Of a DNA stretch of 64,000 nucleotides, positions 34,286-51,769 are shown one piece after another. Below the pieces are notes generated by a model that was given only the letters and a program-made list of their open reading frames with translations, had not been told where the DNA came from and did no database searches. The DNA comes from Pectobacterium sp. PL152 (lineage in GTDB: Bacteria > Pseudomonadota > Gammaproteobacteria > Enterobacterales > Enterobacteriaceae). The translations under genes were made by a program, and so were the position numbers. Positions within the stretch are counted from its first letter, which is position 1. Each line of letters opens with the position of its first letter. The DNA is taken from NCBI GenBank assembly GCA_021907015.1, contig CP091064.1, positions 2,108,001 to 2,172,000 on the forward strand, written 5' to 3'.

Positions 34286-35638
34286 ATGTCTGTCACCCCG
34301 ACGTTTCCTCGCGGCAACGCGCTCAGTCAGTTTATTCACAACGCGCCCACAATGACGATCCCCGATGCCGTGTGGCACGAAGCCAAGCGGGCGCTCATTG
34401 ACTACCTGGGCGTCTCCATTGGCGCGACAGGAGACGATGCGGCCAGCGCGGTTCAACGCGTGGCGCAACGCTGGCAGGCTCAGGGAAAAGCGCAAATCAT
34501 TCTCGGTGCGAAAACCACACCGGCGCTGGCGGCGCTGATCAACGGCACGCTTTCTCATGCAGCCGACTATGACGATACGCATCCGGCTGGTGCGGGACAC
34601 CCTAGCGGCCCTTGCTGGTCAACCGCGTTGGCAATGGCACAGCATTACGGTGCGGACGAGCGCACGACGCTTATCGCGTTCATCACCGGATTTGAAGTCA
34701 TGGCCAGACTGGGAGGCGGCTGGGTGCCTGGCGTAGGTCGCAGCTTGCAACGTCGAGGCTTTCACCCAACGTCGATTGTCGGACGCGCGGGGGCAGCAGC
34801 CGTTGCCGCTTCCATTCTGCGTCTGGAACCCAACGCCATTGCCAATGCGTTGGGGGCGGCCGCGACAATGATGGGAGGATTGCAGAAATCATCCGGTACG
34901 CACGGCAAACCGTTTCATGCTGGCAAAGCGGCCATGGATGGCATCACAGCGGCAGAACTGGCTGAGGAAGGTTTTATTGCCGCCCATCACTTTTATGAAA
35001 CCGATGGCTGGGTAAAAACCTTTGTGCAGGACGGCAGCGCCGTCATCCCGCCACTCGATTTTGGCGACAGTTGGGAGCTATTGGGTAACGGCTACAAACT
35101 GTATGCCAGCTGTCGAGGAACCCATGCGTCAATTGAAACGGCGCTCAAGCTCTATCCACAGCTAAAAGGCCGCGCTATCACCCGTATTCATGCCAAAGTC
35201 CATCCAATGGGAATGGTGAACGCGGGGATCGCCAACCCGCAAACCCCGCTGGAGAGCAAATTCAGTATTCCGCACTGCATTGCGCTGGCGTTGAGCGGCT
35301 ACCGCCTCACCGATACGGACTTTACGCAGCAGACCGTTGACGACCCGGCTGCACGCCAGTTGCTGTCACGCCTACAGATCGATGCCGTCGAGGGGCAGTC
35401 GGCCAGTTCCGCGTTTATTGATATCGAACTGGAAGACGGCGAAATACTCCATGCCGAAACCGATGTTTATCGCGGCCACCCGCAAAATCCACTGACCGAC
35501 GTCGAGCTGCGCACCAAGTTTGACGCGCTGACCCTCCCCGTATTGGGGGAAGATCGCAGCCGTCGGCTCTATCAGGCAGCTTTCCACTTTGAGCAGCCGG
35601 GGTCGCTCGCGACGCTGACTTCGCTATTAGCGGGCTAA
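34286..35638 (+). CDS. MmgE/PrpD-family protein 1
   Basis: 450-aa member of the MmgE/PrpD superfamily (2-methylcitrate dehydratase, cis-aconitate decarboxylase, iminodisuccinate epimerase). The N-terminal helical domain contains HAADYDDTHPAGAGHPSG near residues 92-109, the equivalent of the family active-site segment, and KSSGTHGKPFHAGKAAMDG near 204. The C-terminal alpha/beta domain carries KLYASCRGTHASIE. No signal peptide, so cytosolic. AAGGAG precedes the ATG. It is the first of two adjacent MmgE/PrpD genes in a unit with a permease and an amino-acid ABC transporter. A true methylcitrate dehydratase is unlikely because no prp genes are nearby. The exact reaction is unknown; an epimerase is my preferred guess. 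Confidence 0.83.
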   Translation: MSVTPTFPRGNALSQFIHNAPTMTIPDAVWHEAKRALIDYLGVSIGATGDDAASAVQRVAQRWQAQGKAQIILGAKTTPALAALINGTLSHAADYDDTHPAGAGHPSGPCWSTALAMAQHYGADERTTLIAFITGFEVMARLGGGWVPGVGRSLQRRGFHPTSIVGRAGAAAVAASILRLEPNAIANALGAAATMMGGLQKSSGTHGKPFHAGKAAMDGITAAELAEEGFIAAHHFYETDGWVKTFVQDGSAVIPPLDFGDSWELLGNGYKLYASCRGTHASIETALKLYPQLKGRAITRIHAKVHPMGMVNAGIANPQTPLESKFSIPHCIALALSGYRLTDTDFTQQTVDDPAARQLLSRLQIDAVEGQSASSAFIDIELEDGEILHAETDVYRGHPQNPLTDVELRTKFDALTLPVLGEDRSRRLYQAAFHFEQPGSLATLTSLLAG

Positions 35639-35701
35639 CGCGCTTCAGTTAGACATAAACCATTCGATATAAAAATTTCACGATAACGACAGGACGCTTC
35701 C

Positions 35702-37027
35702 ATGACCATTGCCCGCCAGCTTGCCCATAATCTGCTGGAATTCTCTCGCCAGACGTTCCCTGCCGACGTATTGGCACACGCCCGCACTGCCGTAATTGAT
35801 ACGCTGGGCGTCACGCTCGCGGGGGGGATTCAGGACGGGGCGCAAAAACTCAGGGCGGTAATAGTGCCCTCCGCCGCCGCGGGAAAGAGCCGTATTTTCG
35901 GTACCGATCTCAAACTTAACGCGCTGGATGCGGCGTTATTAAACGGCACATCCGCACATTTGCTCGATTTTGACGACTCCAACTCCTGGCTGCACGGGCA
36001 TATTTCTGTCGCCGTGCTTCCGGCCCTGCTGGCATTGGCAGACGAGCAGGAAGCGAGCGGAGAAGCGATCCTGCATGCCTATTTGTGTGGTTATGAAACC
36101 GCGGTACGCATGGGCAAAGCCGTCAGCCCTTTTCAATATCGCAACGGCTGGCACCCCACAACGTCCGTCGGCATTTTCGCGGGCGTGGCAGCCTGCGCGG
36201 TGCTGCTGAAGCTTAGTGAAGAAGAAACGGCGACCGCCTTTGCAATCACGGCGTCACTCGCCTCCGGCATCAAATCCAACTTCGGCAGTCAAACGAAATC
36301 ACTGGCAGTCGGCCACGCCAATCGCAGCGCCGTCATGGCGGTATTATTGGCGCATCAGGGATACAGCGCGGGGGATAGCGCATTTGAACATCACCACGGG
36401 TATTTCAACGTCTACAACCGTGCCGCCGAAAACGTCGACACCACGCCGTTAACCGAACCTTGGTCCGCACCGTCTCATATTCTGGACCCCGTAAAAGGGA
36501 ATAATTTTAAATATTTCCCCTGCTGCTACGCCATTCTGGCACCGCTGGACGGCCTGCTGACACTACGCGAGGAAACCGGGCTGTCCCCAGAATCGCTGGA
36601 ACGCATTCAGATTGCCATCCACCCTATTCGCTTCCCGCACATCAACATCCCGACGCCGGATACGCCGCTGGCGGGGAAATTCAGCCTGCACTACTGTATT
36701 GCCCGTGCCTGGGTGCAGGGAAGGCTGACGCTGGACGATTTTATTGACGAAGCGGCGCTGGACGACCCCACCACACAATCGCTGATGGCACGCGTTGAGC
36801 TCATCTGTCATGACGAACCCACCACACACACGGCACACGTTACGCTAATCACTCGTGACGGCCACACCTATCATCGCCGCGTGGCAGGCGCGCGTGGCTC
36901 CAGCGCAGAGAACCCGCTGCCGGATAATCTGATTGCGGAGAAATTCATCGACTGCGCTAGTCAGGCTTTGCCACGCCCTGAGGCGCTGGCGCTGTATCAA
37001 CGCCTGCTGCATGACGATTATCGTTAA
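35702..37027 (+). CDS. MmgE/PrpD-family protein 2
   Basis: Second MmgE/PrpD superfamily protein, 441 aa, clearly diverged from the gene before it. Active-site segment LLDFDDSNSWLHGHIS near residues 88-103; conserved GWHPTTSVGIFAGVAAC near 149 and SNFGSQTKSLAVGHANRS near 195. The C-terminal domain has FKYFPCCYAILAPLDG in place of the CRGTHA segment. It starts 63 bases after its paralogue in the same direction. Keeping two paralogues side by side suggests either a heteromer or two stereochemically different substrates; this is inference. Confidence 0.83.
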   Translation: MTIARQLAHNLLEFSRQTFPADVLAHARTAVIDTLGVTLAGGIQDGAQKLRAVIVPSAAAGKSRIFGTDLKLNALDAALLNGTSAHLLDFDDSNSWLHGHISVAVLPALLALADEQEASGEAILHAYLCGYETAVRMGKAVSPFQYRNGWHPTTSVGIFAGVAACAVLLKLSEEETATAFAITASLASGIKSNFGSQTKSLAVGHANRSAVMAVLLAHQGYSAGDSAFEHHHGYFNVYNRAAENVDTTPLTEPWSAPSHILDPVKGNNFKYFPCCYAILAPLDGLLTLREETGLSPESLERIQIAIHPIRFPHINIPTPDTPLAGKFSLHYCIARAWVQGRLTLDDFIDEAALDDPTTQSLMARVELICHDEPTTHTAHVTLITRDGHTYHRRVAGARGSSAENPLPDNLIAEKFIDCASQALPRPEALALYQRLLHDDYR

Positions 37028-37090
37028 CGGCGGAACGGGTGCTTGATACGAATTGAACGCATCAGGCATTATCATTTGTTCGACCACGCG

Positions 37091-37864
37091 ATGGGTTTCA
37101 CCATGCTACATATTGTTCCACCCGACATTTCTCCGCTCTTTGCCGGTATCCTGATTTTTTGCAGTTTTTTGACGTCGGCGTTAACGGCTGCGCTGGGGCT
37201 AGGCGGTGGCGTCACATTGCTTGCGATCATGGGCCTCGGGATGCCAGTCAGCAGCCTGCTGCCGGTACACGGCATCGTCCAGCTAGGCTCCAACCTGAGC
37301 CGCAGCCTGATTCAGCGTTTGTATATCGTCTGGCCATTGGCGCTGTGGTTTTTTATCGGCAGCGTCATCGGCATCGCACTGGGCGCGCCCGTCGTCGTTT
37401 GGATCCCAGACAGCGTGGCAAAAATTGCGCTGGCTAGTTTCATACTGTGGTCGGTTTTCCGTAAACGCACCGCGCCAAAACCGGTTAATCGATTGTTCTT
37501 CATTCTCGGCGGTGCGCTCACCAGCCTCGGCACCATGATTGTTGGCGCAACGGGTCCAATGGTCGCCGGGCTTATCAGCTCTCAAGGGGTCACCAAGCAG
37601 CCGCTTATCGCCACGCACGCGCTCTGCATGGTGTTACAACACGGCCTGAAGATACTGGCATTTGGGATGATGGGGTTTGCCTATCACGATTGGCTGCCGA
37701 TGCTGGCTGCGATGATTGTCAGCGGCGTATTAGGCACCTGGCTGGGCACACGCCTGCTGGATAATCTGCCCGAAAAACTCTTCCGCACCACGTTTCGCCT
37801 CACCATGTTAGTGCTCAGCGCCCAGCTCATGTGGCAAGGCGTACAAAGCTTGCTCGCCCGATAA
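37091..37864 (+). CDS. TauE/SafE-family (TSUP) membrane permease
   Basis: Inner-membrane protein of the TauE/SafE family, about 257 aa with seven to eight membrane segments. The first helix carries ALGLGGGVTLLAIMGLGMPV, and the second half has a GATGPMVAGLISS repeat; both Gly-rich re-entrant motifs are typical. Family members move sulfite, sulfoacetate or other organic anions, usually outward. The start is uncertain: TTG at 37043, ATG at 37091 and ATG at 37103 are in frame and none has a good ribosome-binding site. It lies 63 bases after the second MmgE/PrpD gene and is probably in the same unit. A sulfur-linked substrate would fit the neighbouring cluster. Confidence 0.8.
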   Translation: MGFTMLHIVPPDISPLFAGILIFCSFLTSALTAALGLGGGVTLLAIMGLGMPVSSLLPVHGIVQLGSNLSRSLIQRLYIVWPLALWFFIGSVIGIALGAPVVVWIPDSVAKIALASFILWSVFRKRTAPKPVNRLFFILGGALTSLGTMIVGATGPMVAGLISSQGVTKQPLIATHALCMVLQHGLKILAFGMMGFAYHDWLPMLAAMIVSGVLGTWLGTRLLDNLPEKLFRTTFRLTMLVLSAQLMWQGVQSLLAR

Positions 37865-38006
37865 ATCATCCCTCTGTGCCTTGCTGACCGTGCGAGGCAC
37901 ACCTCCCTTTTTTATCCTTCTGGTCGTGCCCGAAATGGCTATATCCAATATTCAGATTTAGATAGAGAAATATGCTATTTGCCATTTAGATGCAACATTG
38001 AGAACA

Positions 38007-38018
38007 TTTGTATACAAA
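38007..38018. promoter_or_regulatory. Perfect TTTGTATACAAA palindrome upstream of the ABC transporter genes
   Basis: A 12-base perfect palindrome 69 bases before the binding-protein gene, sharing TGTATACAAA with 34191-34200. The 223-base gap 37865-38087 is AT-rich and otherwise empty, so it probably has its own promoter. Confidence 0.55.
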
Positions 38019-38087
38019 AGAGCGCGTCATAATAAAAATCATTAATTACAACAAATTAAAACAACACCGATCATTCTGAGGATACTT

Positions 38088-39140
38088 ATGCTGAGAAAAC
38101 TACTCTCGTTGACGACCGCCACAGCGCTGACTTTAGGGGGGCTTCTGCTGCCCGTCGCACACGCTAATGCCGCTGATACAGGAAATGGCGAAACGCTCAA
38201 AAAAATCAAAGCACGCGGTGAACTGGTGTGCGGCGTGCACCCAGCACGCCACGGCTTTTCCGCGATTGATAGCAAAGGACAGTGGACCGGGCTGGACGTC
38301 GATTATTGCCGCGCATTAGCGGCCGCTGTGTTTGGCGATGCGAATAAAGTACGCTTTGCCGCCCTTTCTACCGCCCAGCGCTTCCCCGCGATTCAGTCTG
38401 GTGAAGTGGACGTGCTGTCACGCAATATCACCGCTGATTTGTCTCGCGATACGTCGCTGGGGCTGAACTTCGCGCCGCCGACCTTCTATACCGGTACGGG
38501 CTTCATGGTGCGCACCAGCGCCAATGTGAAGAAGGTGGAAGATCTCGACGGCGCGACCGTCTGCATCACTCCGGGCAGCAGCACCGAACGTAACGTCGCG
38601 CAGATTTTTGCCTCACGCAACCTGCATTACACCCCGGTGGTTATCGAGAACAATAAAGAGTATGTCGCGGCCTACCTGTCTGGACGCTGCGACGTCATTG
38701 CCCGCGATAAAGTCGCCCTGCCCGGCGTGCGCACCTTTGATGCGGAAAAGCCGTCCGACCATGTGATTCTGCCGGGGATTTACTCAAAAGAGCCGCTGGC
38801 GATGGCGGTTCGTCAGGGTGACGACCAGTGGTACGACATTGTGAAATGGGTGGTTTACGCCACGTTCAACGCGGAAGAGATGGAAATCGGTCAGCAGAAC
38901 GTGGATAGCAAGCTTAAGTCGACAGACCCGGATATACAGGCGCTGCTTGGGGTCACTGGCGATTACGGTCAGAAACTGGGATTGAGTAACCAGTGGGCTT
39001 ACAACGTGATTAAGCAGGTCGGGAATTACGGCGATATTTATAACCGCCACTTCGGGCCAGATACCCCGGCCCCGCTGGAGCGCGACCTGAATAATCTCTG
39101 GACGAAAGGCGGTTTGCTCTACGGTCTGCCCATTCGTTAA
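38088..39140 (+). CDS. aapJ: General amino-acid ABC transporter, periplasmic binding protein (AapJ-like)
   Basis: Periplasmic solute-binding protein of the AapJ/BztA type, 350 aa. Signal peptide at about 1-28 (hydrophobic LTLGGLLLPVAHANA). The mature part begins with LKKIKARGELVCGVHPARHGFS, then GLDVDYCRALAAAVFGD and RFPAIQSGEVDVLSRN, all typical of AapJ. The matching permeases and ATPase follow immediately, making a full aapJQMP set. The family transports a wide range of L-amino acids including acidic ones. The name aapJ is by family resemblance. Confidence 0.88.
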   Translation: MLRKLLSLTTATALTLGGLLLPVAHANAADTGNGETLKKIKARGELVCGVHPARHGFSAIDSKGQWTGLDVDYCRALAAAVFGDANKVRFAALSTAQRFPAIQSGEVDVLSRNITADLSRDTSLGLNFAPPTFYTGTGFMVRTSANVKKVEDLDGATVCITPGSSTERNVAQIFASRNLHYTPVVIENNKEYVAAYLSGRCDVIARDKVALPGVRTFDAEKPSDHVILPGIYSKEPLAMAVRQGDDQWYDIVKWVVYATFNAEEMEIGQQNVDSKLKSTDPDIQALLGVTGDYGQKLGLSNQWAYNVIKQVGNYGDIYNRHFGPDTPAPLERDLNNLWTKGGLLYGLPIR

Positions 39141-39154
39141 TTCACCCAATCATC

Positions 39155-39188
39155 GGCGTCACCCCCCGAGAATATCCGGGCTGACGCC
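39155..39188 (+). repeat. Hairpin between binding protein and permease genes
   Basis: GGCGTCA (39155-39161) pairs with TGACGCC (39182-39188), with inner CCCG/CGGG. No T tract follows. It is of the kind that stabilises upstream binding-protein mRNA in ABC operons. Confidence 0.5.
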
Positions 39189-39266
39189 ATACCACCGTAT
39201 TCACGCACAGATCCCCTCGGATAGCGCGCTGCAATCGGTAATGATCAGAAGAAAAGACCGCCGGTA

Positions 39267-40490
39267 ATGAAATCACCACACCCAACGCTGCCGTCAGCCT
39301 CTGCACCGTCGTGGCTGGGAACGCCATCTTATGCGCGCCGTCTGTTGAATGCGTTTGACAGCAAGTCGCTGCGCGCCTGGATTTATCAGTGCCTGCTCGG
39401 CCTCCTGATTGTCGCTTTCAGCTACTGGCTCTATGCCAACGTGGTCGAAAACCTGCGCTCGCAAAATATCGCAACAGGATTTGGCTTTCTTGACCACACC
39501 GCGCAGTTTGAGATCGGTGAAAAGCTCATCGCCTTTACCCCACGCGACAGTTACCTGCGCGCACTGGGCGTCGGGTTACTGAATACCCTGTACATCACGC
39601 TGTGCGGCATCGTGCTCGCCACGCTGCTGGGCTTCTCCGTCGGCATCGCCCGCGTCTCTCGTAACTGGTTGCTGGCGCGGCTCTCCGGAGGATACATCGA
39701 GATGATGCGCAATATTCCGGTGATCTTGCAGGTGATTTTCTGGTCAGTGGTGATCCGCAACTTGCCCTCACCGCGGGATGCTATCGAACTGGGTAATCTG
39801 GGATTCCTGACCAATCGCGGGCTGTCTTTTGCCGTTCCCGCCGCACACCAGAGCTGGCTGTGGACGGGAATCGCCCTGCTCGCCGCCGTACTGATTAGCC
39901 TGATCCTGAACCGCGTAGCGCGCTATGTTCGGGAAAGTCGCGGGCGCTCTCTGCCGACAGGTCGTTTGACGCTGGCAGCCCTTATCGGGCTACCGCTACT
40001 GGTCTGGTGGCTTTCCGGCGCACCGGCAGAGCTCGATCGCCCGATCTTGCGCGGCTTTAACTTTCGCGGCGGCTTTACCGTCAGCCCTGAATTTACAGCG
40101 CTGCTGCTCGGCATTGCGCTCTATTCCTCCGCGTTTATCGCAGAAATCGTGCGGGCGGGGATTCAGTCTATCCCCAAAGGCCAGTTGGAAGCGGCACGCG
40201 CGCTGTCTTTTTCGCCGTGGCACATGATGCGCCACATCATTATCCCACAGGCCATGCGCGTCATCGTTCCACCGCTGACCAGCCAGTATGTCAGCCTGTC
40301 AAAAAACAGCTCGATCGCGGTCGTGGTCGGTTACCCGGAACTGGCAAACATCAGCAATACGCTAATGAACCAGACCGGCCAGGCGCTCGAAGTGATAGCC
40401 ATCATGATGGTGGTTTACCTGACGGTCAGCATCGTGACATCGCTGCTGATGAACCTGTTTAACCGCGTCGTCGCTATCAAAGAGCGCTGA
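39267..40490 (+). CDS. aapQ: General amino-acid ABC transporter permease (AapQ-like)
   Basis: Inner-membrane permease of the AapQ/BztB type, 407 aa. Long family-specific N-terminal region before the transport domain includes NIATGFGFLDHTAQFEIGE. The C-terminal half carries the EAA loop (QLEAARALSFSPWHMMRHIIIPQAM) contacting the ATPase, and YVSLSKNSSIAVVVGYPEL. It is larger than ordinary polar-amino-acid permeases, as expected for the Aap family. It ends 10 bases before its partner AapM. Start ATG at 39267; the 126-base gap before it holds a hairpin. Confidence 0.87.
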   Translation: MKSPHPTLPSASAPSWLGTPSYARRLLNAFDSKSLRAWIYQCLLGLLIVAFSYWLYANVVENLRSQNIATGFGFLDHTAQFEIGEKLIAFTPRDSYLRALGVGLLNTLYITLCGIVLATLLGFSVGIARVSRNWLLARLSGGYIEMMRNIPVILQVIFWSVVIRNLPSPRDAIELGNLGFLTNRGLSFAVPAAHQSWLWTGIALLAAVLISLILNRVARYVRESRGRSLPTGRLTLAALIGLPLLVWWLSGAPAELDRPILRGFNFRGGFTVSPEFTALLLGIALYSSAFIAEIVRAGIQSIPKGQLEAARALSFSPWHMMRHIIIPQAMRVIVPPLTSQYVSLSKNSSIAVVVGYPELANISNTLMNQTGQALEVIAIMMVVYLTVSIVTSLLMNLFNRVVAIKER

Positions 40491-40500
40491 GGAGCACCGT

Positions 40501-41610
40501 ATGTTATTTCCGGCCCTGTCACTCTCCGCCGTTCCCAGCCAACTGCGTACGCCGCTGCTGTGGCTGCGCCGCCATCTATTCAGCAGCGTGCCGCAAACGG
40601 TGCTTACACTGTTACTGGCAGTGCTAATGTGGAACGTCGGCAATAAACTGCTGCACTGGGGCATTCTCGATGCCGTGTGGTACACCGCTGACCCGGACAT
40701 TTGTCGTGCCGCCGCAGGTGCGTGCTGGGCGGTGATCGTGGAAAAACATCGCCCTATTCTGTTTGGTCTTTATCCTTACGATGAACACTGGCGGCTGGTG
40801 CTGGCGATGGGAATCTGGTTTTTGGCACTTGGCCTGTCGCTGATGCCGCGCTTCTGGCACTCGCGTATCCTCTTACCGCTGTGGCTCGTCGCGGTAGTCA
40901 GCATCGCCATCCTGATGTCCGGCGGCGTGTTTGGCTTATCTTACGTGCCTTCCAGTGAATGGGGCGGACTGCCGCTGACGATTCTGCTGTTTAGCGGCAC
41001 CGTCGTCATCGGTATGCCGGTTTCAGTTCTGCTGGCGCTGGGGCGTCGCTCACCGCTGCCTTTTCTACGCGGTCTGTCGGTTATTTTTATCGAAGGTTTG
41101 CGCGGCGTACCGCTCATCACGATCCTGTTCGTCGCCGTTAACGTATTCCCGCTGTTCCTGCCCGCCGGTATGGAAATCAACAAGCTGCTGCGCATCATCA
41201 TTGGTATCGCGCTGTTTTTCGCCTGCTATCAGGCTGAGGTGATTCGCGGCGGTTTGCAGTCCGTACCACGCGGGCAATACGAAGCGGCGATGGCGCTCAA
41301 TCTCGGTTATTGGCACACGACGACCAAAATCGTCCTGCCGCAGGCGCTGCGTATCTGCCTGCCTGCCATGACCAACCATGTTATCGCCGCTATGAAGAAC
41401 ACCTCGTTCGTCATCATTATCGGGCTGTTCGATATCCTCACCGCCACCAGTTCAGTGATGCAAGACCCGCTATGGCGGCGCTATTACATTGAAACCTATA
41501 TTTTCATCTCGGCTATCTATCTGCTATTTGGCTTCTTGCTCTCACGCTACGCGCTGTGGGTAGAAAAGCGCATCGATGCCAGCCGTAACCCAGAAACGTA
41601 TCACGGTTAA
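40501..41610 (+). CDS. aapM: General amino-acid ABC transporter permease (AapM-like)
   Basis: Second permease of the Aap system, 369 aa. Family features: TVLTLLLAVLMWNVGNKLLHW near residue 40, the insert GVFGLSYVPSSEWGGLPLTI near 145, and the EAA loop QYEAAMALNLGYWHTTTKIV near residue 260. The end reads ALWVEKRIDASR, with the usual VEKR. GAGGAG precedes the ATG. It pairs with AapQ to form the membrane channel. Confidence 0.87.
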   Translation: MLFPALSLSAVPSQLRTPLLWLRRHLFSSVPQTVLTLLLAVLMWNVGNKLLHWGILDAVWYTADPDICRAAAGACWAVIVEKHRPILFGLYPYDEHWRLVLAMGIWFLALGLSLMPRFWHSRILLPLWLVAVVSIAILMSGGVFGLSYVPSSEWGGLPLTILLFSGTVVIGMPVSVLLALGRRSPLPFLRGLSVIFIEGLRGVPLITILFVAVNVFPLFLPAGMEINKLLRIIIGIALFFACYQAEVIRGGLQSVPRGQYEAAMALNLGYWHTTTKIVLPQALRICLPAMTNHVIAAMKNTSFVIIIGLFDILTATSSVMQDPLWRRYYIETYIFISAIYLLFGFLLSRYALWVEKRIDASRNPETYHG

Positions 41611-41652
41611 GCGATAGCCGTTGATGAAAACACCGACAGGAGCCTGGTTATC

Positions 41653-42468
41653 ATGAACTTAGCCGCAGACACTGTAGTTACAAAGACTGTAGTTACAGAG
41701 ACGTCAATGACAAACCATGTAATGGCAGACAGCAACGTCATCATTGAGATCGACGCCGTCAGCAAATGGTACGGCGCGTTTCAGGCACTGAATAACGTGA
41801 CGCTGAACGTGCAGAAAGGCGAGCGTGTGGTGATTTGCGGCCCTTCCGGCTCCGGCAAATCCACGCTCATCCGCTGTATTAACCGACTGGAAGAGCACCA
41901 CGATGGGCACATCCGCGTAAATGGCATTGAGGTCAATGACAACATCAAGAACATCAACCGCGTACGCTCCGGCATCGGTATGCTGTTCCAGCAGTTCAAC
42001 TTGTTTCCCCACCTGAGCGTGCTGGATAACCTGACGATTGGCCCGACGCTGGTCAAGCAGCGTAAGAAGCAGGAGGCCATCGATTTAGCGATGCACTATC
42101 TGGAAAAGGTACATATCGCCAATCAGGCGCATAAGTTCCCGCTACAGCTCTCTGGCGGCCAGCAGCAGCGTGTGGCCATTGCCCGGGCGCTGTGCATGCA
42201 GCCGGAAATCATGCTGTTTGACGAGCCCACTTCGGCATTGGATCCAGAGATGATTAAAGAGGTGCTGGATGTGATGCTCGATTTGGCAGAATCCGGTATG
42301 ACGATGATCGTCGTTACCCATGAGATGGGCTTTGCCAAAACGGTGGCAGACAAGGTAATTCTGATGGCTGACGGCAGCATCGTTGAATCCGCTCCACCGC
42401 AAGACTTCTTCAACACGCCTTCACATCCGAGAACGCGCCAGTTCCTGGATCAGATTTTAAGTCATTAA
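41653..42468 (+). CDS. aapP: General amino-acid ABC transporter ATP-binding protein (AapP-like)
   Basis: ATPase of the Aap system, 271 aa. Walker [10 protein letters not shown] near residue 64, Q-loop FQQFNLF near 115, signature LSGGQQQR near 166 and Walker [13 protein letters not shown] near 185. The conserved N-terminus begins at [12 protein letters not shown]; the first 25 residues are extra and contain [10 protein letters not shown] from a 15-base tandem duplication at 41671-41700. A later start at the second or third Met (residues 19 or 24) would remove it. Last gene of the rightward unit; it converges with the M20 gene. Confidence 0.9.
41671..41700. repeat. 15-base tandem repeat inside the aapP 5' end
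   Basis: ACTGTAGTTACAAAG then ACTGTAGTTACAGAG, one mismatch, in frame, encoding [10 protein letters not shown] in the non-conserved N-terminal tail. Confidence 0.8.
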
Positions 42469-42480
42469 TAGACAGAAAAT

Positions 42481-42506
42481 ATCCGCGCCGGAAAACCGAC
42501 GCGGAT
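42481..42506. terminator. Hairpin between convergent aapP and the M20 gene
   Basis: ATCCGCG (42481-42487) pairs with CGCGGAT (42500-42506) in the 56-base gap between the two stop codons. Read leftward it is followed by ATTTTCTG. Confidence 0.6.
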
Positions 42507-42524
42507 AACATGCTTTAACAGGGC

Positions 42525-43681
42525 TTAGCGAGAGGAAAGCTGTTCCAGACTCTGCTTCGCCATCTGATACAGATAGTGCGCAGTCGGGAACAGGGCGCGA
42601 TCGTCAACGCGGAATTTCGGGTGGTGCAGCGCATACGGTCCGCCGGAGCCGACCATCATGAACGTACCCGGCAGTTTCTGCTGATAGAATGCGAAATCTT
42701 CACCAATCGGGCTGGCTTCCACGCGGCGTGCTTCAAACCCTTCGTCACTTGCCACATTCAGCGCAAACTCAACCCACTCTGGCGTGTTGATCACCGATGG
42801 TGGCCCTGCGTGCCACAGGAACTCAATTTCTGCGCCAAAGGTGCTGGCGATACCTGAAACGATCTGACGGAAACGCTGTTCAATCAAATCACGCGCGTCC
42901 TGGTTGAACGTTCTGACCGTACCTTCAACGTAGGCGGTATCCGGGATAACGTTCCAGGTGCTGCCGCTATGAACCTGAGTAATCGACACTACCGCGTTGT
43001 TGTCAGACGACACCGTGCGGCTGATGATGGTCTGTACAGCAGAAATCAACTGGCCCAGAATGATAATCGGATCGTTGCCTTCATGCGGTTTCGCCGCATG
43101 GCAGCCTTTCGCCGCAATCTTGATCTCAAAACGGTCAACGCCCGCCGTCAACGCGCCGTCTTTCCCACCGATGACGCCAACAGGCAGCGTTGGATCGTTG
43201 TGGATACCGAAAATCGCTACCGCATTGTCCAACGCACCAACCGCAATAACTTCTGGCGCGCCCAGCCCGGTTTCTTCAGCCGCCTGGAATAAAATACGCA
43301 CCGTACCTTTCAGCTCCGGCTCGATTTTTTTCAGCAGAATCGCCGCGCCCAGCGCAGCGGAAGAGTGAAAATCATGACCACAGGCGTGCATCACCCCTTT
43401 ATTGAGCGACGTAAATTCTACGCCAGACTCTTCTTCAATCGGCAGGGCGTCGATGTCCGAACGCACCACGACCAACGGGCCATCCTGAAGGCCACCCACT
43501 TCGGCAACCAGACCGGTTTTCAGCGGCAGATCGAGGACGCGAATCCCCTCTTTTCCAATACCGCACGAATCTTCTTCGTGGTCTCGAACTCCTGATTCGA
43601 CAGCTCAGGGTTACGGTGTAAATCGTGGCGAAACGCCTGAATAAACTGAGCCAGAGGCTCGTGCTGAGGTGCTGTTCTCAT
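42525..43681 (-). pseudogene. M20-family amidohydrolase / N-acyl-amino-acid deacetylase, frameshifted
   Basis: M20D peptidase-family metal hydrolase, 385 codons when repaired. The first 45 or so codons from ATG 43681 (MRTAPQHEPLAQFIQAFRHD) end with VLEK; one missing base in the TTTT run at 43551-43554 (AAAA on the coding strand) then shifts the frame. The rest (GIRVLDLPLKTGLVAEVGG onward) is open to 42525. Metal ligands are seen in VVVRSDIDALP, HACGHDFHS and QAAEETGLGA. Family members remove N-acyl groups from amino acids; B. subtilis YxeP deacetylates N-acetylcysteine in the yxe pathway. It is the last gene of the leftward cluster, matching that role. Confidence 0.85.
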
Positions 43682-43758
43682 TAATACTTGCTCCACATTA
43701 TCGTGCCCTGTCTGGCAGGGCCGCCTTGTTCAGGCGTGCAGGTGTGTCTACGTGTGCG

Positions 43759-44520
43759 TTAAATATCGTACTCAAGCGGCTCAGGCAGCTTGGTCAACTG
43801 ACGCAGGAAACGCTGGGTTTGCGGGTTGTCCGAGAAGCTAATCACCTGCTCCGCCGGGCCTTCTTCAACAATGTGACCGTCCGCCATGAAGATCACGCGG
43901 TCAGCCACTTCTTTCGCAAACTGCATTTCGTGGGTCACGATCACCATCGTGGTGTCGTTTTTCGCCAGCTTCTGAATCACCTGAAGCACTTCGTGTACCC
44001 TTTCCGGGTCCAACGCCGAGGTCGGCTCATCGAACAAAATTGCCTTCGGATCGACCGCCAGCGCACGTGCAATACTCACGCGCTGCTGCTGCCCGCCGGA
44101 TAGCGTCACCGGATACTGTGCCGCCTGCGGCAGCAGACCAACCTGCTCCAGCAGCGCCAGACCGATTTCATCCGCCTGCTTCTTCGGCATTTTTTTCACG
44201 ACAATCAGCGCTTCCGTCACGTTCTCCAGCGCCGTCTTATTCTTAAACAGGTTGTAACTCTGGAACACCATCGCCGTCTGGCGGCGCAGCGCATAGGCTT
44301 CTTTAGAGGAATAACGACGCGTATCCAGCGTTTGGTCGCCAATTTCAATCGTGCCCGACTCAGGCGTTTCCAGCAGGTTTAGACAGCGCAGCAGCGTGGA
44401 TTTACCCGAACCAGATGGGCCGATAATCGCCACGACTTCGCCCTTCGCGATATTCAGACTAATGTTGTCCAACACCACCTGATCGCCAAAGCGTTTAGAA
44501 AGATTCTTTACACTGATCAT
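43759..44520 (-). CDS. Amino-acid ABC transporter ATP-binding protein (YxeO/TcyN-like)
   Basis: ATPase for polar or sulfur amino-acid import, 253 aa. Walker [10 protein letters not shown] near residue 34, Q-loop FQSYNLF near 87, signature LSGGQQQR near 140 and Walker [13 protein letters not shown] near 159. It is closest by eye to TcyN/YecC and YxeO-type ATPases. It ends a three-gene import set (binding protein, permease, ATPase) and starts 9 bases after the permease stop. The 77-base gap to the M20 gene has no clear terminator. Confidence 0.9.
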   Translation of the reverse strand: MISVKNLSKRFGDQVVLDNISLNIAKGEVVAIIGPSGSGKSTLLRCLNLLETPESGTIEIGDQTLDTRRYSSKEAYALRRQTAMVFQSYNLFKNKTALENVTEALIVVKKMPKKQADEIGLALLEQVGLLPQAAQYPVTLSGGQQQRVSIARALAVDPKAILFDEPTSALDPERVHEVLQVIQKLAKNDTTMVIVTHEMQFAKEVADRVIFMADGHIVEEGPAEQVISFSDNPQTQRFLRQLTKLPEPLEYDI

Positions 44521-44529
44521 GTCAGCCCC

Positions 44530-45213
44530 TTATCGCTGTAGCGAGTGATTCAGTTTCTTCTCCAGCTGTTTTTGCAGCCAGGAATAAACAATGATCACCA
44601 ACCAGTAAATCAGCCCCACAACCAGGAAGGTCTCAAAGAAACGCAGAGATTCGGCGGCAATCATCTTGCCTTCCGCGAACAGTTCGGAGACACCCAGCGC
44701 AAAGGCCACAGAGGTATCTTTAATCAGGGAAATAAAGGTATTTCCCGTCGCAGGCAGCGCATTCAACATGGCCTGAGGCAACACGATGCGGCGATAGACC
44801 TGCGCTTTGCTCATACCAATGGACAGGCCCGCTTCCGTCTGGCCGAAATCCACCGAGGACAGGCCCGCACGGAAGATTTCTGCCATATAGGCGGACGTTT
44901 TCAGGCTAAAGCCGATAATCGCCGCCGTCATGGCATCCAGATTGGATAAGCCGGGGAACAGCTGCGGCAGGCCAAAGTAGATGATAAACAGTTGAACCAA
45001 CGACGGAATGCCGCGGAACAACGAGATATACAGTTCGACGATTTTTACTACCACGACGATCTTGCTTTCACGGACTAACGCCAGGATAAGGCCGAGAACC
45101 ATAGCAAAAAACATCGAAACCACGGCAAGGAATAGCGTGGTCGGCAAATACATTAATACCTGGGGAAAGACCTTTAACAGGTAGGCAAGATCGATATTCA
45201 TGAGTAATACCAT
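44530..45213 (-). CDS. Amino-acid ABC transporter permease (YxeN/TcyL-like)
   Basis: HisMQ-type inner-membrane permease, about 227 aa with five membrane helices. EAA loop QTEAGLSIGMSKAQVYRRIVLPQAM near residue 130-155; LFRGIPSLVQLFIIYFGLP is the family motif near 70. Starts at GTG 45225, ATG 45213 and ATG 45201 are in frame; 45213 has GGAAG at good spacing and was chosen. It is the only permease of this set, so it likely works as a homodimer. Confidence 0.88.
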   Translation of the reverse strand: MVLLMNIDLAYLLKVFPQVLMYLPTTLFLAVVSMFFAMVLGLILALVRESKIVVVVKIVELYISLFRGIPSLVQLFIIYFGLPQLFPGLSNLDAMTAAIIGFSLKTSAYMAEIFRAGLSSVDFGQTEAGLSIGMSKAQVYRRIVLPQAMLNALPATGNTFISLIKDTSVAFALGVSELFAEGKMIAAESLRFFETFLVVGLIYWLVIIVYSWLQKQLEKKLNHSLQR

Positions 45214-45267
45214 TAATGCTTCCACCGGCCATATTGCGCCGGTGGAACAGGGTTATGACTAGGCTAT

Positions 45268-45300
45268 ATAACGAATCATCTGGCGGCATAACGAATCATC
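45268..45300. repeat. 13-base direct repeat between binding protein and permease genes
   Basis: ATAACGAATCATC at 45268-45280 and again at 45288-45300, seven bases apart, in the gap between the binding-protein and permease genes. Function unknown. Confidence 0.7.
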
Positions 45301-45338
45301 ACGCGATATGACGACGCCGCCGAGATGACAACGCGAGG

Positions 45339-46130
45339 TTATTTAGCCGGTGATACCGTGATATCTTCGCCAAAATATTTTTCGGAGATCGCTTTCAGGC
45401 GTCCATCTTCACGCATTTTTGTTAATTCGGCGTCGAACTGCTTACGCAGCGCGTCGCCTTTTTCGTCCTTATGGAACGGGAAGCTCACTTCTTCAATCAC
45501 CAGCGGCTCACCAACCAGCTTGAACGGCAGATTACGCTTATTAATTTCCGCCAGCAGGATCGGACGTGAATTCACATAGCCTTCAACACGCTTAGACAAC
45601 GCGTCGTTCATCGCACCATCGCGCGTTTCATAGGTACGAATATTTACGCTGCCGTCGGCAAACGCTTTTTTCAGGTTGTTGACGTGGTTGGAACCCAGAA
45701 CCCCGGCAACGGTCTTCCCTTTCAGGTCGGCCAGCGTATTAATGTCCGCGTTGTCTTTGTGCGTCACAATCTGGCTGCCGTAGAAGCTGTACGGCTGGGC
45801 AAAATTGTATTTTTCCTGACGCGCAGGAGTAATTGCGACCACGTTTGCCACAGTATCCAGTTTTTTCGCTTCCAGTTGCCCCATCAGGCCGCTGAAATCG
45901 GCAGTGACCCATTCGACTTTGTAGTTCAGATCTTTCGCAATGGCTTCCGTCACTTCAACGTCAAACCCAACCAGCTTGTTATCTTGCTTGAAGCCGCTTG
46001 GATAACTTTGGCCAGTTGAACCCACTTTCAGGACTTTTTCCTGCTCGGCGCTGCTTTTCCCAGAATCACAGCCGGCTACAAGAAAGGCGGTCGTCAGCGC
46101 CAGAACAGACAACGTTACTTTTTTCATCAT
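45339..46130 (-). CDS. Amino-acid ABC transporter binding lipoprotein (YxeM/TcyJ-like)
   Basis: Solute-binding protein of family 3, 263 aa. Signal peptide with a lipobox (LVAGC, Cys21), unusual for enterobacterial amino-acid binding proteins, which are mostly soluble, but common in Gram-positive relatives such as YxeM. Core features: GFDVEVTEAIAKDLNYKVEWV and ANVVAITPARQEKYNFAQPY. The ATG overlaps the acetyltransferase stop (ATGATGA). It would feed the permease and ATPase downstream. Possible ligands: cystine-like or succinated sulfur amino acids; not proven. Confidence 0.88.
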   Translation of the reverse strand: MMKKVTLSVLALTTAFLVAGCDSGKSSAEQEKVLKVGSTGQSYPSGFKQDNKLVGFDVEVTEAIAKDLNYKVEWVTADFSGLMGQLEAKKLDTVANVVAITPARQEKYNFAQPYSFYGSQIVTHKDNADINTLADLKGKTVAGVLGSNHVNNLKKAFADGSVNIRTYETRDGAMNDALSKRVEGYVNSRPILLAEINKRNLPFKLVGEPLVIEEVSFPFHKDEKGDALRKQFDAELTKMREDGRLKAISEKYFGEDITVSPAK

Positions 46131-46669
46131 TTTACTGCCTCTCTTTTTGAGTTTTTATCTTTCCACTGGTCATACAATTGGTTATCAAGGATTTTTTCCA
46201 TCCAGATTGTCAGGTGTCCTTTTCCCAGATTCGTCTGCCCGACTTCCTTGAAACCATAATTTCTGTACATCTCAATCAGCCACGGGTGGTTTTGCGCAGT
46301 GCCAAGCGACACCGCAGGCGCTTTGAGCTGGTTAATCAGAATTTCTTCTTCCAGCCAGCCCATCATTTGCTTACCCAGCCCCTGCTTTTTATAGCCAGGG
46401 TGTGTTGCAAACCAGCCCAAATGGGGCAAACCGAACGGGCCAGGCTCCGGCCCCCACGGATAGCGGATGGTGAATGACGACACCATCTCCCCCTCTTTTT
46501 CCATTACATAAACGCCGTGTGAGGCAATATGCGTGCGCACCATGTCGATGTCCGCATGGGCGGCGGAAAAATTGATGCCCAACTGGCGAATCGGCTCAAA
46601 CGCCGCCAGCGCCAGCGCCAGAAAAGTCTCATCATCCGCAAGCGTAGCCTGACGAAATACGATACTCAT
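46127..46669 (-). CDS. GNAT-family N-acetyltransferase (YxeL-like position)
   Basis: GNAT acetyltransferase, 180 aa. The acetyl-CoA-binding motif A is seen at HLGWFATHPGYKKQGLGKQM near residues 83-102 (Q-x-x-G-L/G-K), and the C-terminal AQNHPWLIEMYRNYGF matches motif B. In B. subtilis, YxeL acetylates S-(2-succino)cysteine as the first step of its breakdown; the neighbours here match that setting, but substrate is inferred. Starts 9 bases after the lyase stop and overlaps the binding-protein gene, so it is clearly in the same operon. Confidence 0.85.
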   Translation of the reverse strand: MSIVFRQATLADDETFLALALAAFEPIRQLGINFSAAHADIDMVRTHIASHGVYVMEKEGEMVSSFTIRYPWGPEPGPFGLPHLGWFATHPGYKKQGLGKQMMGWLEEEILINQLKAPAVSLGTAQNHPWLIEMYRNYGFKEVGQTNLGKGHLTIWMEKILDNQLYDQWKDKNSKREAVK

Positions 46670-46678
46670 GATGTCACC

Positions 46679-48043
46679 TTATGCTGGCAGCAGGCCGGAG
46701 TTATCCGCATAACGAATCACGTCATCAACCTTCTGCGGCGCACTGCCAACGTAGTTAGCCGGATTCAGCCATTCGTCCAGATCGGCGGCGGTCACCTGCT
46801 CAGAAAGCACCGGATGAGCCAGCAGCACCGATTTAAAGGACTGATTTTGCTCGAATGCCTGCATTGAGCATTCGTAAACCAGATGGTGAGCAGTTTGCTT
46901 ACCAAGGCGTTTACCAATCTCGAACATGACTTTCTCGGACAAAAGCAGGCCATTTTGCAGATCGAGGTTCGCCAGCATTTGCTTCTCGTTGACGGACATC
47001 CCACGCAGGATGCCGAGCGCATTCTGAAGCTGAGCAGACAGATAGATATTGATTTCTGGCAACGCAATCCACTCCGCACGCCAGCTCATCGCATCACGCT
47101 CGTGCTCAACCTTCATGGATTCATGAATCAGCGCGGCGCTCTTGAACAGCGGTGCAGTCAGGCTCGCCAGCCCTTCCAATGCGGCAGGGTTACGTTTATG
47201 CGGCATGGTGGTTGAACCGATTTTCCCTTCGGAGAACGGCTCTTCAATTTCGTTAATCTCGGTGCGCATCAGGTTGTACAGTTCGTTGCCGATTTTACCC
47301 AGCGTACCGCTGATCAGCACCGCGACTGAGGCGTATTCGGAGAAGCGATCGCGGGCAGACTGCCAACCGATATTCGGCGTATTCAGCCCCAGTTTATCCA
47401 GCGTCAGACGCTCGATTTCCGGCCCTTGTTCGCCAAAAGAAGCATAGGTGCAGATGGCACCGTTGATGTTGCCGACGAGAACACGTTCCTTGATTTCACT
47501 CAGACGCTCGAGGTGACGGATAAATTCATCCAACCAGACGGCCAGTTTGAAGCCAAACGTGGTGGGCAGCGCCTGCATACCGTGGGTACGGCCCGCCATC
47601 AGCGTGTGCTGATATTTCTTCGCCAGACGCTTCAGTTCAACGGCCAGCAGTTGTGTATCTCTTACAACAATATCAAAAGATTGTTTCAGCTGTAACACTG
47701 TCGCGGTATCAACGATGTCCTGTGTGGTAACACCGTAGTGAATAAACTCACCCGCAGCGCCGCACTGTTTCTGAATCGCGGCAATCGTCGGCATCAGAGA
47801 GTGCTTCATGCGTGCCGCATCTTTTGCAATCTCTTCAACGTTAAGCGCGCTTGCATCAGCGTTTTCTGCAATGGTTTTTGCCGCATCCAGCGGAATGACA
47901 CCCAGCTCACCCTCAGCAAGCGCCAGGGCAACTTCGACTTCGACCTGTTTAGTCAGGCGATTATGCTCGGACCAGACGCCGCGCATTTCAGGCGTGCCAA
48001 AATTATTCCCTATAAGAAGAAAATCAATAAGATGTGATGCCAT
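46679..48043 (-). CDS. Fumarase/aspartase-superfamily lyase (adenylosuccinate-lyase-like)
   Basis: 454-aa lyase of the superfamily that eliminates fumarate from succinyl adducts. All three family regions are found: YGVTTQDIVDTA near 103-114, AGRTHGMQALPTTFG near 149 and the signature KIGSTTMPHKRNPAALEG near 275-292 (flexible loop serine). Length and C-terminal domain are of the adenylosuccinate lyase type, but context argues against housekeeping PurB: it heads an operon with a GNAT enzyme, an amino-acid importer and a deacetylase. Candidate reactions: splitting S-(2-succino)cysteine or another succinated amino acid to fumarate plus the amino acid. Such an S-(2-succino) lyase has been described in bacteria. 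ATG at 48043 has a weak ribosome-binding site. Confidence 0.85.
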   Translation of the reverse strand: MASHLIDFLLIGNNFGTPEMRGVWSEHNRLTKQVEVEVALALAEGELGVIPLDAAKTIAENADASALNVEEIAKDAARMKHSLMPTIAAIQKQCGAAGEFIHYGVTTQDIVDTATVLQLKQSFDIVVRDTQLLAVELKRLAKKYQHTLMAGRTHGMQALPTTFGFKLAVWLDEFIRHLERLSEIKERVLVGNINGAICTYASFGEQGPEIERLTLDKLGLNTPNIGWQSARDRFSEYASVAVLISGTLGKIGNELYNLMRTEINEIEEPFSEGKIGSTTMPHKRNPAALEGLASLTAPLFKSAALIHESMKVEHERDAMSWRAEWIALPEINIYLSAQLQNALGILRGMSVNEKQMLANLDLQNGLLLSEKVMFEIGKRLGKQTAHHLVYECSMQAFEQNQSFKSVLLAHPVLSEQVTAADLDEWLNPANYVGSAPQKVDDVIRYADNSGLLPA

Positions 48044-48142: not shown

Positions 48143-48157
48143 GATCTATCTTAGATC
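48143..48157. promoter_or_regulatory. Inverted repeat in the promoter region of the lyase operon
   Basis: GATCT-ATCTT-AGATC lies 100 bases upstream of the lyase start, in the 247-base divergent gap to the phosphatase gene. The flanks TTTG and CAAA-like bases extend it loosely. Candidate operator; no regulator recognised. Confidence 0.35.
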
Positions 48158-49598: not shown

Positions 49599-49688
49599 CG
49601 CACGATATCGCAGGGAACAACAACGTCTTGTCGGGTTAACGAATCCGACAAGATTTTCGCAAGAAGACAAATCGCAGACGAAAAAAAG

Positions 49689-49718: not shown

Positions 49719-49795
49719 TGGTCGGCGAGAGAGGATTCGAACCTCCGACCCACTGGTCCCAAACCAGTTGCGCTACCAAGCTGCGCTACTCGCCG
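49719..49795 (-). tRNA. proM: tRNA-Pro (UGG)
   Basis: 77-base tRNA with encoded CCA. The T-loop GGTTCGAATCC and anticodon loop TTTGGGA (anticodon UGG) are seen. Sequence equals E. coli proM as I remember it. Last gene of the argX-hisR-leuT-proM operon. Confidence 0.97.
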
Positions 49796-49837
49796 AATGT
49801 ACTGCTTTTTTGAACATCACTGATGTTCTCGTTTGTG

Positions 49838-49924
49838 TGGTGCGAAGAGAGGGACTTGAACCCTCACGTCCGTAAGAACACTAACACCTGAAGCTAGCGC
49901 GTCTACCAATTCCGCCACCTTCGC
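49838..49924 (-). tRNA. leuT: tRNA-Leu (CAG)
   Basis: 87-base class II tRNA with a long variable arm (GTTCTTACGGAC) and encoded CCA. Anticodon loop CTTCAGGTG gives CAG. Third gene of the operon. Confidence 0.97.
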
Positions 49925-49966
49925 ATAACTCACAAACTGTCAATCAACTACTATAGCTGCAAAATC

Positions 49967-50042
49967 TGGGGTGGCTAATGGGACTCGAACCCACGACAAC
50001 TGGAATCACAATCCAGGGCTCTACCAACTGAGCTATAGCCAC
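49967..50042 (-). tRNA. hisR: tRNA-His (GUG)
   Basis: 76-base mature form with encoded CCA and discriminator C. Anticodon loop TTGTGAT gives GUG. The preceding G (position 50043) provides the extra G-1 typical of tRNA-His. Second gene of the operon. Confidence 0.97.
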
Positions 50043-50163
50043 CATCACCACACTTTACATCAACTACTTATTACGCGGTACTTCCTTTTTACGGGATACT
50101 TTCTTTGCGAAGAAAAGTGTACCACCGCAGCTCTTGCACACAACATACTTCATAAAAATATAA

Positions 50164-50240
<77 letters not shown>

Positions 50241-50261: not shown

Positions 50262-50290
50262 ATATTACGGGCTTAGCGACTGGCTGTCTA
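50262..50290 (-). promoter_or_regulatory. Promoter of the argX-hisR-leuT-proM operon
   Basis: On the leftward strand TAGACA (50285-50290), 17 bases, TAATAT (50262-50267), followed by a GC-rich discriminator (CCCGCCCCGC) as in stable-RNA promoters under stringent control. The -35 hexamer includes the TAG stop codon of yifK. Confidence 0.75.
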
Positions 50291-51769
50291 GTGCTTTTTA
50301 TCGAAATGATGCGTTTGATTATGATTTGTCCATTCCAAGCTAAATAACATACAGTTACGCCCTTCCCGCCCCAAAACACTACGATTTACCCTCTGCCAGC
50401 GACGTTTTTTACCCAGTCCCAGAGCGAAATAACATAGGCTGACCACGGCTAAAAACGCGACACCGACCAGTAAAGACATCCGCGTATCGATATTGATGTA
50501 CATTCCCACCAGCACACACAGCAAAAATGCCATCGTCAGGTAGTTTACCCACGGGAACAGTATCGATTTAAACGGATGGGCGGCCAGCGCGGCACGATGC
50601 TGTTCACGAAAACGCAGTTGGCTAATCAACACCACAAACCATGGCACCATGCCCGGCAGTACGCTCGCGCTATAGACATAAACAAACACTTTTTCCGGGT
50701 TAGGGATAATGTAATTCAGCACCGACCCGGCCATCAGGCACAGAATCGAAATCATGACGCCCGCAGCCGGTACGCCGCTGGCCGTTACTTTACCTAACCA
50801 GGCAGGAAGCTGGCGATTGTTGGCCAACGAATACAGCATACGTCCACAGCTATACATGCCGCTGTTACAGCCGGACAGCGCAGCCGTCAGTACCACAAAG
50901 TTGATGATGCCTGCCGCCGCCGTAATACCAATTTTTCGCAAACGTCAGCACAAACGGGCTGCCAGACGTGCCGATTTCATTCCAGGGGAAAATCGTGACG
51001 ATAACAAAGATCGCGCCCACATAGAAAATCAGGATGCGCCACAGAATGTTGTTGATTGCTCGCTTCAGCGTTACCTGCGGGTTTTTCGCCTCGCCCGCCG
51101 TAATGCCTACCAACTCCACGCCCTGATAAGACGCCACCACCAGACAGAGTGCGAACAGCAGACCTTTCCAGCCGCCCGCCAGAAAACCGCCGTGTTCGGT
51201 CAGATTGCTGAATCCGGTTGCCTGACCGTGGTTACCAAAGCCGAAGAAAATAATGCCGACGCCGACGACAATCATCACAACGATGGTGGTGATTTTTATC
51301 ATTGCGAACCAGAATTCGATTTCGCCATACAGCCTGACTGCCGCAAGGTTTGCACCCGCCACCAGCGCAACTGCGGCAATAGCCGGTATCCATTGCGGCA
51401 AATCGGGGAACCAGTACTGCACATAGACGCCAATGGCGGTAATTTCCGAAATCCCAACCGCCATCCACATAAACCAATAACCCCATGCGGTGAGATAACC
51501 GAAAAAGGGATTCATGTATTTATGCGCGTAGACGGCAAACGATCCCGCGACCGGCTCCAGATACAGCATTTCGCCCATTGAGCGCATGATGAAGAAAACG
51601 AAGATCCCTGCGACAATATAAGCCAGCAATACTGATGGCCCAGCCCATTTCAACGCGCTGGCCGCGCCCATAAATAGCCCGACGCCGATCGTGCCACCCA
51701 GCGCAATCAACTCAATATGTCGGGCTTCTAACCCCGATGGAGTTTTTCCTGCTTTACATCTTCTGCCAT
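50288..51769 (-). pseudogene. yifK: Threonine/serine permease YifK (ThrP), two frameshifts
   Basis: APC-family inner-membrane amino-acid permease (12 helices), in the same place as E. coli yifK/thrP, upstream of argX. From ATG 51769 the first codons read [13 protein letters not shown], then one missing base in the C run at 51732-51735 hits a stop; the next frame continues [18 protein letters not shown] to SPFVLTFAK. One extra base in the T run at 50932-50936 then shifts again, and [20 protein letters not shown] runs on to the stop. The two changes cancel, giving 493 codons (E. coli 461) in total. All family motifs are present once repaired. Errors in homopolymers are more likely than true loss. 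Confidence 0.92.

Follow-up and report, generated by a model that had tools for sequence, protein, structure and literature searches.

Which compound is processed by a six-gene operon in which a lyase of the fumarase superfamily is encoded together with an acetyltransferase, an ATP-binding cassette (ABC) transporter and an M20 deacetylase? The operon lies in Pectobacterium sp. PL152, within a stretch of 64,000 nucleotides (positions 2,108,001-2,172,000 of the 5.02-Mb single-contig genome) that is called the window here; coordinates refer to it unless stated otherwise. Judged by homology, by the order of its genes and by residues of the active site, it is very probably a salvage operon for S-(2-succino)cysteine (2SC) of the scm/yxe type, in the form in which a lyase takes the place of the monooxygenase YxeK. 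The same had been proposed in a sequence-only reading of this DNA, and the proposal agrees with a published pathway that includes a Dickeya enzyme (PMC9706529).

This pathway was described in 2022 by Hillmann et al. (PMC9706529). A survey of about 2000 genomes delivered 102 yxe loci, of which 27 contain a lyase named S-(2-succino) lyase (2SL); yxeK and the lyase occur together in three loci only, 2SL otherwise standing in the place of yxeK. The 2SL genes of Dickeya dadantii and Enterococcus italicus complemented Bacillus subtilis delta-yxeK. The enzyme reversibly cleaves N-acetyl-2SC to fumarate and N-acetylcysteine, and for both characterised 2SLs N-acetyl-2SC was the best substrate tested, with about 60-fold (D. 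dadantii) and 320-fold (E. italicus) greater efficiency than 2SC (Table 1 of that paper). Dithiothreitol, 2-mercaptoethanol and coenzyme M (CoM) are also acted on. Zmuda et al. reported in 2025 (PMC12757645) that ScmP (= YxeP) acts specifically as an N-acetylcysteine deacetylase and that B. subtilis possesses three redundant N-acetylcysteine deacetylases.

The salvage pathway and the exchange of yxeK for 2SL are already in print, and the Pectobacterium operon is a well-supported orthologue of that pathway. New, and small, are a lyase score above the NCBIfam purB cut-off, an inverted repeat upstream of the lyase gene and the conservation of a catalytic pair in YxeQ. The name Pectobacterium is absent from the main text of PMC9706529, the figures lying outside the text search, and a literature query linking Pectobacterium with S-(2-succino)cysteine found nothing, a weak result because the spellings make for an awkward query.

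Operon organization and gene order

The genes for the lyase, a GNAT acetyltransferase, a substrate-binding lipoprotein (SBP), a permease, an ATPase and the M20 deacetylase follow each other in this order on the minus strand (Table 1), as the sequence-only reading had described. The tight spacing reported there is found between lyase and GNAT genes (9 nt), GNAT and SBP genes (4-nt overlap) and permease and ATPase genes (9 nt), but not between SBP and permease genes (113 nt, a value that depends on the uncertain permease start) or between ATPase and M20 genes (77 nt). The operon holds no LLM monooxygenase gene; with genes for an acetyltransferase, a transporter and a deacetylase and with yxeK absent, it has the at least three components that define a yxe-type locus. 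One monooxygenase of the NtaA/DmoA family scores over the cut-off at 85.8 kb of the contig, far from the operon; the family models do not discriminate YxeK.

A scan of named genomes yielded 70 loci, on which the counts of gene order, inverted repeat and YxeQ homologues are based; for gene order the best match per gene was used, on the lyase strand only. The exact six-gene order occurs at 35 loci, the order without the M20 gene at 20 (Gilliamella or other Orbaceae) and lyase-GNAT-M20 at 10, while the remaining five are single arrangements; locus L097 has lost the lyase. Locus L042 was miscounted under these rules, its best SBP match being on the other strand; an SBP gene in two pieces sits in the proper place. 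At 69 of the 70 loci the GNAT gene follows the lyase gene. The six-gene order is far beyond chance.

Identity of the lyase

Membership of the lyase in the class I superfamily is given by its Pfam scores (PF00206, Lyase_1, 158 bits; PF10397, ADSL_C, 71.5 bits), its fold is not in doubt, and a sequence search finds solved relatives. With 373.4 bits it exceeds the cut-off (326.2) of the NCBIfam purB equivalog TIGR00928. Four other 2SLs were tested and all pass this model as well (363-386 bits), so that TIGR00928 is read as a model catching 2SLs as well as PurB, and annotation pipelines using it may name 2SLs adenylosuccinate lyase. The sequence-only reading had made its proposal dependent on a second purB in the genome and on a lyase that does not act only on adenylosuccinate. 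A separate purB was found at genome positions 4785854-4787218 (NF006764, 802 bits, cut-off 446), so the lyase is not the sole purB-like gene, and all six 2SL-locus genomes tested with the purB model also hold a higher-scoring PurB.

Residues were compared in 67 2SL rows and 7 PurB rows, with the contacts taken from the paper on the Staphylococcus aureus PurB structure (PMC2917274, excerpts) and Lysinibacillus PurB, which the numbering of that paper fits, as the ruler. The PurB phosphate contacts R4, Y5, N276, S306 and R310 read N, F, G, W and W in the lyase of the window (positions 14, 15, 291, 321 and 325). Among the 67 2SLs the Arg4 column holds Asn in 56 and Ser in one, with a gap in 10, and the Tyr5 column Phe in 57 with a gap in 10; Asn276 is replaced by Gly, Ser306 by Trp and Arg310 by Trp in all of them, Arg310 being aligned in two Bacillus-type PurBs only and gapped in the other five. 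Unchanged in all 67 are His68, Thr93, Ser262, Lys268, Asn270, Glu275 and Arg301; His141 is kept in 66, and Gln212 and Thr140 are each kept in 64 (the other three having Ser at Thr140), but Asp69 is Ser (65) or Thr (2). The 2SLs retain most of the residues for catalysis and succinyl binding, and their contacts to the AMP phosphate are replaced; because of this replacement an activity on adenylosuccinate alone is unlikely. The identification of the lyase as adenylosuccinate lyase was rejected on the replaced phosphate-pocket residues, the separate purB and the gene context.

Phylogeny and distribution

A tree of 50 rows has a branch, with support 95/99, that separates 35 2SLs from 7 PurBs. The lyase of the window groups there with those of Pectobacterium, Brenneria, Samsonia, Dickeya and Symbiopectobacterium (10 rows, 99/94), and in a second tree of 26 rows (17 2SLs and 9 others) with those of D. 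oryzae and Brenneria (95/90). It shares 88-89% identity with the orthologues of D. oryzae and D. undicola, both of which have the full six-gene order.

The nearest named DNA found is that of Pectobacterium aroidearum L6 (95.8% identity over 7605 bp of the operon region, 96.6% over 10,972 bp). A sample of 25 Pectobacterium genomes was used for the counts of lyase, inverted repeat, neighbouring genes and YxeQ; the lyase is present in all 25 with 98-100% identity. At E 1e-130 or better it was detected in 8 genomes of a sample of 119 that spans the family in the Genome Taxonomy Database (GTDB), including the genome of the window itself. Hosts of the 70 loci include Pectobacterium, Brenneria, Samsonia, Dickeya, Symbiopectobacterium, Gilliamella and other Orbaceae, Pantoea, Providencia, Rahnella, Klebsiella michiganensis, Kosakonia and Pasteurellaceae, and among Bacilli Sporolactobacillus, Lysinibacillus and Ureibacillus (lyase identity 56-63%).

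Proposed pathway

From homology to characterised enzymes, the following scheme can be drawn for this genome. The ABC transporter would import 2SC, and the GNAT enzyme would N-acetylate it, as shown for ScmL of B. subtilis. 2SL would then remove the succinyl group by beta-elimination, releasing fumarate and N-acetylcysteine, a step shown for the Dickeya and Enterococcus enzymes. Finally the M20 enzyme, like ScmP, would deacetylate N-acetylcysteine to cysteine, which in this isolate depends on whether a frameshift in its gene is real. The sequence-only reading was right in naming succinated cysteine; its substrate is refined in that the characterised enzymes prefer N-acetyl-2SC over 2SC (PMC9706529), a preference that explains the GNAT and M20 genes.

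The transporter parts are closest to cystine-transport models. The best NCBIfam matches are a cystine-binding protein for the binding protein (148.7 bits, under the cut-off of 312), a cystine permease for the permease (210.8 bits, under 300) and TcyN for the ATPase (315.6 bits, under 406). The acetyltransferase has the GNAT fold and the operon position of YxeL/ScmL.

The M20 gene starts at 43681 and not at 43499, where the sequence-only reading had placed it; the open reading frame 42525-43499 represents the C-terminal part only. The window aligns with the P. aroidearum L6 protein in two frames, one covering residues 1-47 and the other residues 44-385, which places a frameshift near 43.54-43.55 kb (43541-43553), and the gene is one open frame of 385 codons at all ten named Pectobacterium loci. 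Among solved structures the C-terminal piece matches 1ysj, 'protein yxeP', best (E 7.2e-99, 334 bits; next 183 bits), by which the M20 enzyme is classed as YxeP/ScmP-like and closest to B. subtilis YxeP. Other genes of the genome are also split, namely lyase-superfamily pieces at genome positions 3240325-3241319, 4385661-4386965 and 4971016-4972007. An amino acid permease gene at 50288-51710 of the window likewise appears split, as judged by eye. With several genes in pieces, an assembly (indel) error is likely for M20; if the frameshift is real, the final step would need another deacetylase, such as B. subtilis has.

Alternative explanations

Several observations speak against a 2SC salvage operon or narrow what can be claimed for it. 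PurB Ser94 is Thr in all 67 2SLs. The midpoint root of the 50-row tree leaves PurB among the 2SL rows, and the 26-row tree does not join all 2SLs, a long-branched row for which we use the label PcaB-like (our own) standing beside the Sporolactobacillus 2SL; the test of one clade for the 17 2SLs is borderline (approximately unbiased test, p-AU 0.05). Because of the root placement and this value the phylogenetic claim is limited to the grouping with Dickeya 2SLs, obtained in both trees, and does not extend to a single 2SL clade. The D. dadantii (E0SKP1) and E. italicus 2SLs lie outside the 70 loci and both trees, and other Dickeya orthologues stand in for them. For the GNAT protein no relative was found in the Protein Data Bank (PDB) at E 1e-3, the transporter scores are below the curated cut-offs, so that sequence does not settle which compound is imported, and the assembly has an interrupted M20 gene.

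Some of these points would suit other explanations. If the lyase were a PurB paralogue that transporter and acyl genes adjoin by chance, its score above the TIGR00928 cut-off, its ADSL_C domain and the midpoint-rooted drawing would be accounted for, but the replaced phosphate contacts, the bona fide purB elsewhere and in the other genomes tested, and the near-constant succession of lyase and GNAT genes make this extremely improbable. An operon for another S- or N-succinated amino compound (e.g. succinated homocysteine, cysteamine or iminodisuccinate), for which 2SC would be a side substrate, would be in line with the further compounds on which 2SLs act, with the sub-threshold cystine models and with a cluster 5.5 kb away that contains an iminodisuccinate-epimerase-like gene. 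It is improbable, as N-acetyl-2SC is the best substrate tested for both characterised enzymes (PMC9706529) and the six genes are ordered as in Dickeya, from which one of these enzymes comes. Decay of the locus in this isolate, with a real M20 frameshift and a pathway that ends at N-acetylcysteine or uses another deacetylase, is rather unlikely. In favour of decay, the frame is interrupted here although relatives have it intact, and B. subtilis has redundant deacetylases (PMC12757645); against this, the other broken genes of the genome form a pattern fitting assembly indel errors, and the remaining five operon genes have open frames with 99-100% identity to their P. aroidearum L6 counterparts.

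YxeQ and a possible epimerase

Homologues of YxeQ occur within the fetched flanks of 43 of the 70 2SL loci, and the one tested in Pfam belongs to MmgE/PrpD. For two homologues that were searched, the closest solved relative is 7bra, 'Bacillus subtilis IRG1' (295 and 317 bits), followed by iminodisuccinate (IDS) epimerase 2hp3 (144 and 162 bits). The 7bra protein may be YxeQ itself, a guess based on its length of 445 residues. In the alignment the His and Tyr pair of the epimerase is present in all 43 homologues. YxeQ was listed with 'unknown function' in excerpts of PMC9706529. According to passages of PMC7347537, the active site is completely conserved between the 7bra protein and IDS epimerase, whose proposed bases His99 and Tyr145 are conserved in the Bacillus protein and not in mammalian IRG1; the paper nonetheless treats human His103 as the equivalent of the Bacillus His. 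A decarboxylase assay of the Bacillus protein does not appear in these passages, nor does the term 'activity assay'.

Because IDS is the nitrogen analogue of a succinated amino acid and the His/Tyr pair is kept, we tentatively propose, with considerable doubt, that YxeQ/ScmQ of the MmgE/PrpD family epimerises 2SC or N-acetyl-2SC at the succinyl C2. Both C2 epimers are expected from chemical succination, and lyases of this superfamily are expected to be stereospecific and to accept one of them. If the proposal is true, a C2 epimerase would open the whole 2SC pool, as IDS epimerase does for the nitrogen analogue; the residue pattern turns an unassigned pathway gene into a testable enzyme proposal.

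In some Pectobacterium the role could be filled by the IDS-epimerase-like product of the second MmgE/PrpD gene beside the operon (Table 1). This gene is present in 14 of the 25 genomes, each time about 11 kb from the lyase gene; the linkage is explained by one inherited event and is therefore weak evidence for a shared function. Against the epimerase proposal, 27 of the 70 loci, the Pectobacterium operon included, have no YxeQ match in the fetched flanks. Together with the presence of the neighbouring gene in 14 genomes only, this means that epimerase activity is not indispensable. A search with a Pasteurella YxeQ found no homologue in the 25 Pectobacterium genomes at E 1e-60, which is uninformative as it had no positive control.

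Control elements and neighbouring genes

About 100 bp upstream of the lyase gene the minus strand reads GATCTAAGATAGATC, a perfect inverted repeat that contains two GATC (Dam) sites. In 23 of the 25 Pectobacterium genomes the pattern GATCTA-N3-TAGATC has exactly one occurrence, each time about 100 bp upstream of the lyase gene; a control pattern has none. It is present at 15 of the 70 named loci, all from Pectobacterium, Brenneria or Samsonia, with conserved arms and a variable middle, and was not found at two named Dickeya loci. From this conservation the repeat is a candidate operator of some regulator. Conservation upstream of the lyase gene is more informative than a sigma-70 promoter scan of the region, which gave nothing above chance (one found, mean 5.0). 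A terminator-like hairpin directly follows the M20 gene; the region holds nine such hairpins in total (shuffled mean 7.4), which is near chance.

Table 1. Positions of the operon genes, control elements and neighbouring genes in the window
Feature	Position	Strand	Remarks
S-(2-succino) lyase (2SL), 454 aa	46679..48043	-	Pfam Lyase_1 and ADSL_C; predicted N-acetyl-2SC to N-acetylcysteine and fumarate
GNAT acetyltransferase, YxeL/ScmL position	46127..46669	-	Pfam Acetyltransf_1/7/10; predicted 2SC N-acetyltransferase
Substrate-binding lipoprotein, YxeM position	45339..46130	-	Pfam SBP_bac_3
ABC permease, YxeN position	44530..45225	-	start codon uncertain; best NCBIfam match cystine permease
ABC ATPase, YxeO position	43759..44520	-	best NCBIfam match TcyN
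M20 deacetylase gene, YxeP/ScmP-like	42525..43681	-	two pieces by frameshift; PDB match, two-frame alignment
Inverted repeat GATCTA-N3-TAGATC	48143..48157		candidate operator, ~100 bp upstream of lyase
Terminator-like hairpin	42480..42507	-	directly after M20 gene; 12-pair stem, then T-rich tail; consensus scan
GntR/FCD regulator	33304-34008	-	
First MmgE/PrpD gene	34286-35638		Gln at epimerase Tyr column
Second MmgE/PrpD gene	35702-37027		best solved relative IDS epimerase, 196 bits; His/Tyr pair present
TauE/SafE-type protein	37043-37864		
Amino acid ABC transporter	38088-42468		

The neighbouring cluster (33304-42468) is convergent to the operon. At some of the 70 loci extra genes stand beside the lyase gene, namely an iron-type (YbdH-like) dehydrogenase at 20, a second related binding protein at 16, an aminotransferase at 10 and a monooxygenase of the NtaA/DmoA family at nine, several of the matches being weak (26-34% identity); examples are loci L049 (4026-6554), L047 (4437-7835) and L085 (3675-6776). 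These genes possibly form a second route for the same compound. Beyond a phytase-like gene, P. aroidearum L6 (locus L028, 4113-6390) has a segment of about 2.3 kb that encodes a second binding protein and includes a dehydrogenase-like stretch; the counterpart in the window is about 20 bp (49653-49675) beside a tRNA cluster for Pro, Leu, His and Arg (49719-50240).

Significance and comparison with known systems

By its sequence the operon is predicted to recover cysteine from fumarate-damaged cysteine in a soft-rot bacterium. Across the 25 Pectobacterium genomes examined the 2SL route is conserved, and its range extends over Enterobacterales, Orbaceae, Pasteurellaceae and Bacilli. Automatic annotation may list further 2SLs as adenylosuccinate lyases, and the phosphate-pocket residues offer a simple discriminator.

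With PurB the lyase shares the superfamily domains, the GSTTMPHKRNP loop and the catalytic His, Ser, Lys, Asn and Glu, whereas the residues of the AMP-phosphate pocket are replaced and the genome keeps a separate purB. Its second-best NCBIfam match (441 bits) is XcbD, the 3-sulfopropionylcysteine synthase of bacterial CoM synthesis (NF052536), which by its family name likewise works on a cysteine thioether; the score is below the 600-bit cut-off of that model. The B. subtilis scm/yxe operon (YxeK-L-M-N-O-P-Q) has the acetyltransferase, the ABC transporter and the M20 deacetylase in common with the operon of the window, which differs in having a lyase in place of the monooxygenase YxeK and in lacking yxeQ. 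Excerpts of PMC9706529 describe the D. dadantii yxe (scm) locus as like the B. subtilis operon apart from the exchange of YxeK for the lyase (E0SKP1), the same exchange as found here. In D. oryzae and D. undicola, which represent D. dadantii in this comparison, the same six genes follow in the same order; the window differs from these Dickeya loci in the frameshifted M20 gene and in the inverted repeat upstream of its lyase gene.

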